A stretch of 64,000 nucleotides of DNA. Origin: Methanoregula sp. Lineage in GTDB: Archaea; Halobacteriota; Methanomicrobia; Methanomicrobiales; Methanospirillaceae. The notes beneath the pieces are model-generated. The model did no database searches. It worked only from the letters and a program-made list of their open reading frames with translations, and was not told where the DNA came from. The translations under genes were made by a program, and so were the position numbers. Below are positions 15,980-20,246 of the stretch, piece by piece; the first letter of the stretch is position 1, and every line of letters begins with the position of its first letter. The DNA lies in NCBI GenBank assembly GCA_030694985.1, contig JAUYTV010000009.1:1-64000 (forward strand). The letters run 5' to 3'.

Positions 15980-16345
15980 ATGGGGCGTTACCAGCAGGGC
16001 GATGTCATACTTGCACCCGTTGCTTTTGAGGAGCGGGGGGGCGCAAAGACACGCCCGGCCATTGTGATCTCAGCGGCTGAAAACGGCGAGGTGCAGATCT
16101 GCCCGGTCAGCAGCCACCCGCCAACGGATGCACCCTGTATACCGATCTCGCTTAACGATTTTTCCGATGGAGGGCTTGACCTTTTTGAGGAGAGCTATGT
16201 TCTTACAACCCGCATCCGCACTATCCGAAGCGGTGAAGTAGTAGGTAAACGGGGCAGGCTTACAAAGGAGTGCATTGCCTCAGTTATTGCTAAAACGCCC
16301 GGACAGAAAGCAAAAAGCACAGATACAAAAAAGAGGTCCGGGTAA
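15980..16345 (+). CDS. PemK/MazF-family toxin-like protein without a neighbouring antitoxin
   Basis: A 121-aa protein. The N-terminus MGRYQQGDVILAPVAF, followed by the KTRPAIVIS strand, is the characteristic start of the MazF/PemK fold. The later region (VLTTRIRTIRSGEVVGKRGRL) is the usual strand and dimer segment. MazF enzymes cut single-stranded mRNA. No AbrB- or RHH-like antitoxin frame is visible immediately upstream or downstream, unlike a classic mazEF pair. The basic, lysine-rich tail (KAKSTDTKKRSG) is extra. It may be an orphan toxin, have a distant partner, or have lost toxicity. Confidence 0.8.
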   Translation: MGRYQQGDVILAPVAFEERGGAKTRPAIVISAAENGEVQICPVSSHPPTDAPCIPISLNDFSDGGLDLFEESYVLTTRIRTIRSGEVVGKRGRLTKECIASVIAKTPGQKAKSTDTKKRSG

Positions 16346-17033: not shown

Positions 17034-18566
17034 ATGGATATCTCGGATAATATCAGGGATATTGAAGAGACCGTTGGACGGTTATCGCGGGTACAGAAGA
17101 TCCTGCTTGGCACTGATGGCTCTGTTACGCAACTGCTGGAGTCGATCACGGGACACCCCGTTACGGTTAAGACGCTCGTGCAGGAGATTGTCCCCGCAGA
17201 TGCAGAGACCGCAGACCGGGTGGATGTTCGCGTGGGCGATCCGGTAAATCACCGTGTGGTCGAACTACGGGACAACGTGACAAACGAAATGCTGATCTAT
17301 GCGATATCCGAGACCCCGGTCGAGCGGTTGTCTCCTGCATTTAAAACCGACCTGTTGATGGCCGATATTCCAATCGGAAAGATCATAAAACAACATCATA
17401 TCGAGGCACGGCGCGAGATTATCTCTGCCCGTGTATCAGAAGCCACAAAAGAGACCCGCAGGATCTTCTCCATCTGCCCTCATGAACCCGTGCTCAGTCG
17501 CCAGTACCAGATCATCCACAACCACAAGCCCCTGATCTTCATCGAGGAGCAGTTCCCGTACAACCAGTTTCTTGATGAACGCAGGATCGTGGTCAACACC
17601 CCATCCCGGATCCATGTAAGCCTGATCGATATGCATGGCGGTTTAAGAAGAGTGGATGGCGGGATTGGTATCACGCTCGATGAACCGGCGATATTACTTG
17701 AAGCGCAGCAGAGCCCGGATATCCGTATAACTGGTTGCGATACTGCCACAAAGGAGCGGGTGAGCGGAATTGCTTTAGAGGTACTCCGGCAGATCCATGC
17801 CGGAGCCGGAGTTTCCATCACGGTTCGATCCCTCTACCCGGCTCATACCGGTCTTGGGAGCGGTTCGCAGCTGGCGCTTGCCACCGCCCGTGCGTGCTGC
17901 GAACTCTATGGCAAAAATCTGCCGGTGACAGAGCTTGCACAGATGGCAGGTCGTGGCGGCACATCAGGTATCGGGACAGCGGCCTTTGAATACGGGGGTT
18001 TCATCATCGATGGAGGACACCGTTTCGGGTCTGATGGTGATAAAAGAGATTTCAGGCCGTCATCGGCATCGCGGGGCATACATCCACCACCAGTCATCGC
18101 CCGCCATGACTTTCCAAAAGACTGGAAGATCCTGCTTGCCACACCGGACTTACCGGCAGGAGCGAGCGGGGCGATGGAGGCAGACATCTTCCGTAACCAC
18201 TGCCCGGTTTCCCTCAGTGAGGTGCAGGCGCTCTGTCACGAAGTGCTGATGCGGATGCTGCCCGGTATCGTGGAGCAGGATCTCGAAATGTTCGGCTCAT
18301 CGATCAACACGGTCCAGTCTCTCGGGTTCAAGAAAGTGGAGCTTGGCCTCCAGCCACCAGAAGTAACCGGGCTCCTTGAGGTTATGCGGTCTGCCGGGGC
18401 TGCCGGGGCGGGTATGAGTTCGTTTGGGCCAACCGTTTATGCAGTCGGGGAGTCCGGCATGAACGCGATCGGGCAGGCTGCACAGTCGTTCATGAAGGAG
18501 ACGGGAGGGGGTACTACGCTCATTACCACGGCCCGGAACAGCGGGGCGGTTATCCGGGTAGCGTAA
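17034..18566 (+). CDS. Chorismate lyase-like / RFAP (RFHP) synthase fusion, methanopterin biosynthesis
   Basis: A 510-aa two-domain protein. Residues 1-170 match the chorismate pyruvate-lyase-like DUF98 family (LLGTDGSVTQLLESITGHPV, then AISETPVERL and IGKIIKQHHIEARREI). Residues 183-510 match beta-ribofuranosylaminobenzene 5'-phosphate synthase, a GHMP-kinase-fold enzyme (TPSRIHVSLIDMHGGLRRVDGG; the glycine-rich YPAHTGLGSGSQLALA loop at 268-283; RGGTSGIGTAAFEYGGF). The second domain joins PRPP to a benzoate, releasing CO2, as the first committed arylation step of methanopterin. The first domain would make 4-hydroxybenzoate from chorismate, the substrate reported for methanogens. Fusion suggests channelling of the intermediate. 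In most methanogens the two are separate genes. Start ATG at 17034; the gene stands alone. Confidence 0.9.
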   Translation: MDISDNIRDIEETVGRLSRVQKILLGTDGSVTQLLESITGHPVTVKTLVQEIVPADAETADRVDVRVGDPVNHRVVELRDNVTNEMLIYAISETPVERLSPAFKTDLLMADIPIGKIIKQHHIEARREIISARVSEATKETRRIFSICPHEPVLSRQYQIIHNHKPLIFIEEQFPYNQFLDERRIVVNTPSRIHVSLIDMHGGLRRVDGGIGITLDEPAILLEAQQSPDIRITGCDTATKERVSGIALEVLRQIHAGAGVSITVRSLYPAHTGLGSGSQLALATARACCELYGKNLPVTELAQMAGRGGTSGIGTAAFEYGGFIIDGGHRFGSDGDKRDFRPSSASRGIHPPPVIARHDFPKDWKILLATPDLPAGASGAMEADIFRNHCPVSLSEVQALCHEVLMRMLPGIVEQDLEMFGSSINTVQSLGFKKVELGLQPPEVTGLLEVMRSAGAAGAGMSSFGPTVYAVGESGMNAIGQAAQSFMKETGGGTTLITTARNSGAVIRVA

Positions 18567-18627: not shown

Positions 18628-20202
18628 TCAGGCCGGGTTTACTTCTGCAAACCATTTCCTGATCACGAGCGAGGCTGGTTTTTCCCGTACAGAGGATGAT
18701 TTCTCAAATGAGTACTTCGGGTTGAACCCGGGCTCTATCCAGTAACCCCAGGTGTACACACCACCAAGCCACGGCTCATCACGGGTGGACTTAAAAAACG
18801 CCTCATAGAGGTCTGCCTGTCCGATGAGATCCTGTTGGACAGAGGGGGCAGTTGCCATGGGTTCAAACCAGGCCTGTGCTGCCGCATGATCCCGGCTCTG
18901 GAAGGGGAGCAGGAAGATGAGCGGTTTTTTGTACTTTGCGTACAGGGGATCGAACTGCTTCCGGTTGAACCTGTCCATAGCCGCTTCAAGCTCCGGAAGG
19001 GACGGTCGTTCCTGATCCGAGAACCGGTTATAATAGTATATCGTGATGACATCGAGATCGTCTGCCCACGGAACCTGCGAGGCATGATCTGACCATTCAC
19101 TGGTAAAGAGCACCTGCGTCAGCTTCCCGTGATACACAGTCCGTACATTGGCAATCAGCTTACGCCACCGCTGTTCGTTGGCCGGGATCATTGCCCCATC
19201 GATCTGTTTCCCGAGCGCGAGCATCTCGATATTGTGCTTCTCTGCGATCTGCGCAGATTTCTGCATGAAAGATCCGAACTGTACAAACCAGCGATCCCAG
19301 TACGCATTGGCTTCCGGGTCGGAGGGGTTCTTTGAGAGCCGATCGGCCATCTCCTGCACGGTCTTTTGGCCCTGCGTCCACTTGTTCTCCTGGTATTTCA
19401 TGTACGCATCGTTGTCGGTCGATGGATACTCACCCGGCATGACGGTCCACTCAAGCTCCGTATATAGTGTAAATTTCAGTCCGCGCTTGTGGGCGGCGTC
19501 AGCCATCAACCCGATCGAGCTTTCATCCGCAGCACCCCAGAGCCCGACTGCTGCCTCATCAACGATCTCAGGAGCAGATGTATTTGCGTACGCCCAGTAA
19601 TAGTCATACGCAACCCACTCTCCGCCATCCTCTTTCATCGCATCGTACGTGTTCCAGAGATTGCCGGACTTAGCTGCGGCTGGAATATTTCCACCGCCAT
19701 CCATGATCGCGTGGCCTTTCTGGAATTGCGGCTTACGGACCATTGGGGTGTCCGTCCATGGGGCACCGGCTCTCAGCGAAGTGTTCGCAGAAAGGGTTTT
19801 TACCATATCCGCAGTGACCTTCCCCCCGGAAGAGAACGAGTACCGGATCTCGTCACCGGCCGTAATCCCGATACCGTTGTGCCGGTAGTAATAATCCGTA
19901 ACTTTCTCCATGGGGTACTGCTGCCCGTTGAGCGTGAGGGTTACCGGTTCCTTCGTAGCCGGGACCGAGGCTTCGACCGGGACAAAAAGCCGCGTCCCGG
20001 TTGCTACAGCAGGCACTTTTCCGTACTCCGGCTGCTGCGCAAAGGGTAGCGAGCTGATCCCCGGCGTTTGTCCCGGTACGGGGCACCACGGGGGCTGCGG
20101 CCACGGGCCGGCCGGTGGGCAGAAGCCAACCGCCGCCATGCCGATCGTTCCGACAACAATAACGGCGATCAGTAAAAGGATGATCTTTACTGCAACATGC
20201 AT
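18628..20202 (-). CDS. Secreted TIM-barrel glycoside hydrolase-like protein
   Basis: A 524-aa protein exported by a single N-terminal hydrophobic segment (HVAVKIILLLIAVIVVGTIG), followed by a Pro-rich linker and a beta-rich segment (60-130). The main part (from about 150) has the alternating strands and helices of a TIM barrel with motifs such as AADESSIGLMADAAHKRGLK, YTELEW, DDLDVITIYYYNRFSD and GGVYTWGYW. This is reminiscent of GH113-like or related glycosidase barrels. I cannot assign catalytic residues with certainty. It ends with a conserved SLVIRKWF-type helix. I place the start at the ATG at 20202; a GTG five codons upstream is possible. It probably acts at the cell surface on polysaccharide. 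Confidence 0.6.
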   Translation of the reverse strand: MHVAVKIILLLIAVIVVGTIGMAAVGFCPPAGPWPQPPWCPVPGQTPGISSLPFAQQPEYGKVPAVATGTRLFVPVEASVPATKEPVTLTLNGQQYPMEKVTDYYYRHNGIGITAGDEIRYSFSSGGKVTADMVKTLSANTSLRAGAPWTDTPMVRKPQFQKGHAIMDGGGNIPAAAKSGNLWNTYDAMKEDGGEWVAYDYYWAYANTSAPEIVDEAAVGLWGAADESSIGLMADAAHKRGLKFTLYTELEWTVMPGEYPSTDNDAYMKYQENKWTQGQKTVQEMADRLSKNPSDPEANAYWDRWFVQFGSFMQKSAQIAEKHNIEMLALGKQIDGAMIPANEQRWRKLIANVRTVYHGKLTQVLFTSEWSDHASQVPWADDLDVITIYYYNRFSDQERPSLPELEAAMDRFNRKQFDPLYAKYKKPLIFLLPFQSRDHAAAQAWFEPMATAPSVQQDLIGQADLYEAFFKSTRDEPWLGGVYTWGYWIEPGFNPKYSFEKSSSVREKPASLVIRKWFAEVNPA

Positions 20203-20246
20203 GGAGAAGACCTGCACTTCGTTAAAATAAATGAATTGTGATCGGT

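Follow-up and report, generated by a model that had tools for sequence, protein, structure and literature searches.

A gene of Methanoregula joins a chorismate lyase-like domain to a beta-RFAP synthase domain, an arrangement that recurs in Methanomicrobiales

The analyzed stretch of Methanoregula DNA (64,000 nucleotides, called the window) contains one uninterrupted open reading frame in which a chorismate pyruvate-lyase-like domain is followed by a beta-RFAP (RFHP) synthase (RFAPS) domain (Table 1). The start codon is conserved, as all homologues compared in frame (5/5) open with MDISG(N/S)IRDIEE. The linker does not include a long spacer and is conserved in close relatives. The original prediction had given exactly these coordinates for the frame, and the boundaries it had proposed for both halves (residues 1-170 and 183-510) are close to the matched ones. 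The window lies on contig C36 of a genome of 2.49 Mb that is 96% complete (G000). The closest named records belong to Methanoregula and other Methanomicrobiales (six loci, 84-87% identity), and the order of the neighbours is mostly the same in six relatives, with the GH113 gene absent in some of them. The neighbours are unrelated to the fusion by family, i.e., DUF6125, a member of the PemK-like toxin family, DUF6790, a C39-like peptidase, a GH113 protein, and ABC transporter genes. Therefore, the evidence rests on the fusion and not on an operon.

Table 1. Features of the fusion locus and the paralog in the same genome.
Feature	Position	Strand	Remarks
Fused chorismate lyase-like/beta-RFAP synthase gene	17034..18566	+	single uninterrupted frame of 510 codons (510 aa), ATG start
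PF01947 chorismate pyruvate-lyase-like domain, residues 25-176	17106..17561	+	profile match
Short linker, about residues 177-185	17562..17588	+	interval between both domain matches
Beta-RFAP (RFHP) synthase domain, GHMP fold family, residues 186-506	17589..18557	+	profile match
PemK/MazF-like gene	15980-16345	+	PF02452, E 7e-9; in place also in relatives
GH113-like protein, 529 aa, adjoins the fusion	18628-20217	-	in some relatives only; gone together with the fusion in G167
RFAPS-like paralog, 359 aa	G000:C51:101222-102298 (locus L003 1363-2442)		N-terminus with RGGDLDLVEY

The domain assignments made for both halves by the original prediction are confirmed by family matches over cut-off and by matches to solved structures. 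The N-terminal domain matches PF01947 ("Chorismate pyruvate-lyase Rv2949c-like") with 93.9 bits (cut-off 22, E 1.2e-26, positions 1-143 of 149 of the profile) and the PDB entry 2nwi (E 2.6e-37), which we take to be a protein from Archaeoglobus. It is below the cut-off of the chorismate lyase equivalog NF037993 (cyano_chori_ly, 38.1 versus 175 bits) and is not filed there. UTRA (PF07702) matches the same domain with 25.5 bits (cut-off 23.8), over a part of the profile (58-113 of 141) that overlaps with the better PF01947 match. The C-terminal domain matches the equivalog NF040726 BetaRFA-P_synth (395.1 bits, cut-off 328, model positions 2-326 of 327), TIGR00144 (367.7 bits, cut-off 113.5), and the C-nucleoside synthase ForT (PDB 6yqq, E 2.6e-37, also 8aoz/8ap0). 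A structure prediction from seven near-identical sequences reached a mean pLDDT of 35 and was left unused.

Both halves of the fusion are under purifying selection, with dN/dS values against five relatives of 0.09-0.17 for the lyase half and 0.10-0.15 for the synthase half. In the lyase half, D28, G29, S30, T32, E36, T47, Q50, N72, R74, E124, R126, R127, R156, Y158, E172, and F174 show little or no variation across 48 fused and 35 stand-alone rows (numbering of the domain reference shifted by 8). R74 and E172 presumably match Arg76 and Glu155 of UbiC. Where a genome contributed duplicate loci, these were omitted from this alignment (L001, L102, L106, L135-L138, L140, L147), the residue alignments were made without lyase rows of less than about 120 aa and synthase rows of less than about 200 aa, and the 35 stand-alone rows include one genome twice (L101, L180) and a contig-end fusion fragment (L028). 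Another fold or missing binding residues, which the original prediction had named as grounds to give up the lyase assignment, were not encountered at the sequence level, and the family-invariant lyase residues are kept.

For the synthase half, the accessible part of the ForT paper names R19, H99, T106, R135, and S139 as PRPP-binding residues, which correspond to R192, H271, S278, R307, and S311 of the fusion (PMC8183095). Together with T310, K433, and E436, these are the counterparts of PRPP/substrate residues of ForT, as far as the available text of both sources describes them (PMC8183095, PMC9832568). R192, H271, R307, T310, S311, and E436 are kept in 47/47 fused and 48/48 stand-alone synthase rows, and K433 is present in 47/47 and 42/48, respectively. 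At position 278, 38 of the 47 fused rows have Thr and nine have Ser, and the 48 stand-alone rows uniformly have Thr. Arg26 of the M. thermautotrophicus enzyme MTH0830, which according to the accessible part of its description matters for the binding of 4-aminobenzoate, equals R206 of the fusion (kept in 95/95 rows), and its D19 equals D199 (kept in 94/95 rows) (PMC6787355). However, the ForT equivalent of R26, R33, is placed about 18 angstrom from PRPP in the available ForT text, and thus the exact role of R26 is disputed in print (PMC8183095).

In genome profile searches of G000, the fusion was the sole PF01947 match and the only canonical RFAPS. TIGR00144 had two matches, namely, the fusion (369 bits) and a weak paralog of 359 aa on contig C51. 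The genome retains Mch and the TIGR00284 enzyme.

The survey of fused and split architectures that the original prediction had proposed covered 232 genomes of the order Methanomicrobiales, of which 158 have PF01947 and 167 have TIGR00144 over the cut-off. Long fused frames turned out to be the rule, as 142 of the 150 PF01947 matches listed lie within open frames of at least 486 aa (hand count). The fusion architecture is common in Methanomicrobiales and is not peculiar to this genome. Two of the eight shorter matches are contig-end fragments (G125 and G070), and the closed genome G189, which belongs to the genus of the window, contains the lyase half alone (L181, G189:C1:814500-820500).

The high-quality set of the order comprises 135 genomes (at least 90% complete, at most 5% contaminated), and 28 of them have no canonical RFAPS by hand count, ten of which are single contigs (the 28 are G158, G167, G189, G126-G128, G148, G213, G214, G024, G025, G029, G030, G040, G043, G047, G050, G074, G080, G088, G103, G109, G111, G114, G115, and G119-G121). 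G070 was left out of this count because its gene runs off the contig end. PF01947 is likewise missing in 27 of the 28, the exception being G189. Six further genomes, all of the genus g25, contain RFAPS without PF01947, which indicates that the lyase is not always needed. These 27 and 6 genomes add up to the 33 that remain when the 102 genomes with PF01947 are subtracted from 135.

In one fusion-less genome of the genus of the window, G167, the syntenic region (L075) is collinear with the window, but the ABC ATPase gene comes right after the DUF6125 gene, and the fusion and the GH113 gene are gone. Masking as a cause of the missing genes was ruled out for G167, as the region is devoid of N and the other neighbours are in place. 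The interval of 153 bases contains a stretch of 25 bases that resembles fusion codons about 400-408 (23 of 25 bases versus the fusion gene of locus L004) and aligns to the same place in all seven fusion genes compared. Among dinucleotide shuffles, the score against L004 was reached in 0/1000, and the lower score against the gene of the window in 1/1000. The remnant is read as a probable deletion scar, which would indicate loss rather than ancestral absence. In G080 (99% complete), only a short decayed piece was found.

Pathway markers were searched in 24 of the 28 RFAPS-less genomes and in eight others. The dihydropteroate synthase-related (pterin-condensing) protein TIGR00284 was present in 32/32 (over cut-off in 24/32), and Mch was also present in 32/32 (over cut-off in 31; in G126 a partial match of 119 positions). 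Loss of the pathway in the fusion-less genomes was ruled out for these two markers, and their retention in the 24 RFAPS-less genomes suggests that production or use of the cofactor continues in these methanogens. It seems that the fusion is not indispensable for cofactor use and that the gene is naturally dispensable. Methanogens that have the tested downstream enzymes and lack any recognisable canonical RFAPS must rely on a different enzyme or take up a precursor.

A survey of 246 genomes of the phylum (at least 85% complete) found PF01947 in 135 and TIGR00144 over the cut-off in 228. RFAPS-family matches over the TIGR00144 cut-off (E about 1e-45) were also found in the families f13, f17, f20, and f22 and in the Haloferax volcanii control. 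Outside of Methanomicrobiales, fused frames occur in the families f21 (nine genomes) and f12 (three genomes), and elsewhere the lyase has a gene of its own. In three genomes of the family f7 (G232, G241, G250), the two genes share a strand, with the lyase downstream of RFAPS and a gap of about 105 bases separating their domain matches. This gene order, the reverse of that in the fusion, may be taken as an independent sign that the two proteins act together. Several lineages carry RFAPS without PF01947, and thus these must obtain the acid in some other way. The PF01947 matches of family f10 with "stops inside" were unusual at first sight, and their frames fit an alignment that runs onto the terminal stop.

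In the synthase tree, the fusions of Methanomicrobiales and f21 form one side of a branch (100/99.9). Neither a single origin that includes the f12 fusions (p-AU 0.171) nor an origin of the unfused g25 proteins within the fused clade (p-AU 0.181) was rejected, and resolution of the lyase tree is weak. The history may comprise a single ancient fusion, followed by splits and losses, or two fusion events. The tree behind the paralog branch lengths given below omits 21 further loci that are near-copies or duplicates, and the synthase tree leaves out 26 loci and all paralogs.

To our knowledge, only a few organisms have been studied, by means of extracts and enzymes, to learn whether the benzene ring of tetrahydromethanopterin comes from 4-hydroxybenzoate, made from chorismate, or from 4-aminobenzoate. 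White in 2011 reportedly worked on a methanopterin RHP synthase, and an alternative origin of aromatics has reportedly been studied in Methanococcus maripaludis. In its accessible part, the ForT paper calls the methanopterin enzyme RHP synthase, citing White 2011 (PMC8183095). PabB (TIGR00553), the candidate supplier of 4-aminobenzoate, was rejected, as it had no match over the cut-off in any of 57 genomes (28 RFAPS-less and 29 others). Therefore, among the enzymes recognised here, the lyase domain alone leads from chorismate to a benzoate, which favours 4-hydroxybenzoate as the putative substrate.

In 45 of the 57 genomes, TIGR00553 matched one chorismate-using synthase more weakly, presumably anthranilate synthase, and in three genomes the match was in two pieces. 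The anthranilate synthase-like gene of G189 appears in two frames. This match is absent from 8/28 fusion-less versus 2/27 fusion-bearing genomes (Fisher p 0.078), and likewise from G027 and G044 of the genus g25, which have RFAPS alone. The good-quality genomes without it are G091, G124, G027, G044, G213, G214, G050, G088, G115, G074, G025, and G029, and tryptophan auxotrophy is possible in them.

The fusion protein is probably a bifunctional enzyme that makes 4-hydroxybenzoate from chorismate and ribosylates it for the synthesis of tetrahydromethanopterin. The N-terminal domain would convert chorismate to 4-hydroxybenzoate with removal of pyruvate, and the C-terminal GHMP-fold C-riboside synthase would then couple this benzoate with PRPP, releasing CO2 and pyrophosphate. 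The predicted product is 4-(beta-D-ribofuranosyl)hydroxybenzene 5'-phosphate, or its amino analogue if 4-aminobenzoate were supplied, and it would be the earliest intermediate that is specific to the arylribitol arm of the cofactor. We infer these reactions, the 4-hydroxybenzoate substrate, and any benefit of the fusion, e.g., channelling or a fixed stoichiometry, from sequence comparisons. Both halves keep their conserved residues, the fusion comprises the sole canonical copies in its genome, and the linkage recurs. The original prediction had regarded the fusion as a genomic argument that the lyase product feeds RFAPS, and this argument is strengthened by the recurrence of the fusion, the reverse-order gene pair in f7, and the absence of PabB matches over the cut-off in the 57 genomes. 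Counted against the bifunctional reading are the RFAPS-less genomes that keep pathway markers, the lyase-free genus g25, the UTRA match, and the score below the NF037993 cut-off.

The UTRA match makes a binding-only role of the N-terminal domain conceivable, and the domain might be a catalytically dead sensor of chorismate or 4-hydroxybenzoate with the chorismate-lyase/UTRA fold, which would regulate the RFAP synthase. However, UTRA is just over its cut-off, while the PF01947 score is far higher, the residues that are invariant in stand-alone PF01947 proteins are also invariant in the fused ones, and in G189 the lyase half persists alone, which would not be explained for a regulator of a missing half. 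Such a sensor therefore seems quite improbable. The joining of two neighbouring genes by a sequencing or assembly error was refuted, as the same frame is present in six independent records and in most PF01947-bearing genomes of the order.

A further reading assigns the housekeeping role in methanopterin synthesis to the RFAPS-like paralog of the order, and would make the fusion an accessory C-riboside synthase. The paralog is widespread: in the phylum survey it was found (E at most 1e-30) in 52/246 genomes, namely, in 49 of the 50 Methanomicrobiales drawn, with one match each and 57-83% identity, and in three genomes of family f21. It is also present in 23 of the 24 fusion-lacking genomes searched, with none in G080. 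The equivalents of R192, H194, D199, H271, K433, and E436 are retained in 24/24 rows, and its pace of evolution is unchanged, with a branch of 0.039 in the fusion-less G167 versus 0.041 in G000. However, the paralog scores below both cut-offs (74 bits versus TIGR00144, 82 versus 328 bits for NF040726), it has Glu in place of Thr310, and it lacks the arginines equal to R206 (MTH0830 R26) and R307 (ForT R135) in 24/24 rows, the latter of which is reported in the available ForT text to be essential for PRPP binding (PMC8183095). In addition, a genus of family f21 (g68) has the fusion without the paralog, and thus the fusion must serve there. For these reasons, an accessory role of the fusion is regarded as unlikely. 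By homology the paralog is the only candidate substitute for the fusion, and by its residues it does not appear convincing. In 14/24 loci, the paralog is directly preceded by a conserved gene (e.g., L055 515-862, L047 2-415), which in the two loci scanned encodes a DUF2148 ferredoxin-domain protein. White's work reportedly needs an enzyme that converts the phenol to an aniline, and this Fe-S gene might bear on that step.

Beyond the bifunctional enzyme, a wider scenario is offered tentatively, and we consider it possible rather than probable. Methanomicrobiales might have two C-riboside synthases for one arm of the cofactor, the chorismate-fed fusion and the order-wide paralog, whose phosphate pocket would have been rebuilt. 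The paralog could replace the fusion, the fusion or either of its halves would have been dropped repeatedly, and the losers would use another aromatic acid or ribosyl donor.

The value of the fusion is that it makes a chorismate origin of the benzene ring testable and that it exposes methanogens that do without it. With both predicted activities on one polypeptide across the order, and with adjacent genes in f7, the chorismate route can be tested with one recombinant protein. In the open-licence literature, no related paper was found that links chorismate lyase or 4-hydroxybenzoate to methanopterin or RFAP synthase; the fusion may still have been reported, and sequence databases probably already display the two-domain architecture.

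The C-terminal half has well-known relatives. Beta-RFAP synthases described in the accessible part of one study are MJ1427 of M. jannaschii, MTH0830 of M. thermautotrophicus, and AF2089 of A. fulgidus (PMC6787355). The fusion matches the whole NF040726/TIGR00144 profile over the cut-off and keeps the substrate-binding Asp and Arg, but stand-alone RFAPS frames in the phylum have about 312-370 aa, whereas the fusion has the lyase domain in front. The C-nucleoside synthases ForT and PyfQ of formycin and pyrazofurin synthesis are homologous GHMP-fold C-riboside synthases that use PRPP and an aromatic acid that is decarboxylated, and their PRPP residues are conserved in the fusion. However, their substrate is a pyrazole dicarboxylate, and Ser21 and Gln266 of ForT are His194 and Glu436 in the fusion. 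The N-terminal half is far over the cut-off of the PF01947 family, which includes Rv2949c, 2nwi, and cyanobacterial chorismate lyases, and keeps its invariant residues, but elsewhere stand-alone PF01947 frames have about 160-220 aa, and the fused half scores below NF037993. The fusion is thus an unusual arrangement of two known enzymes.
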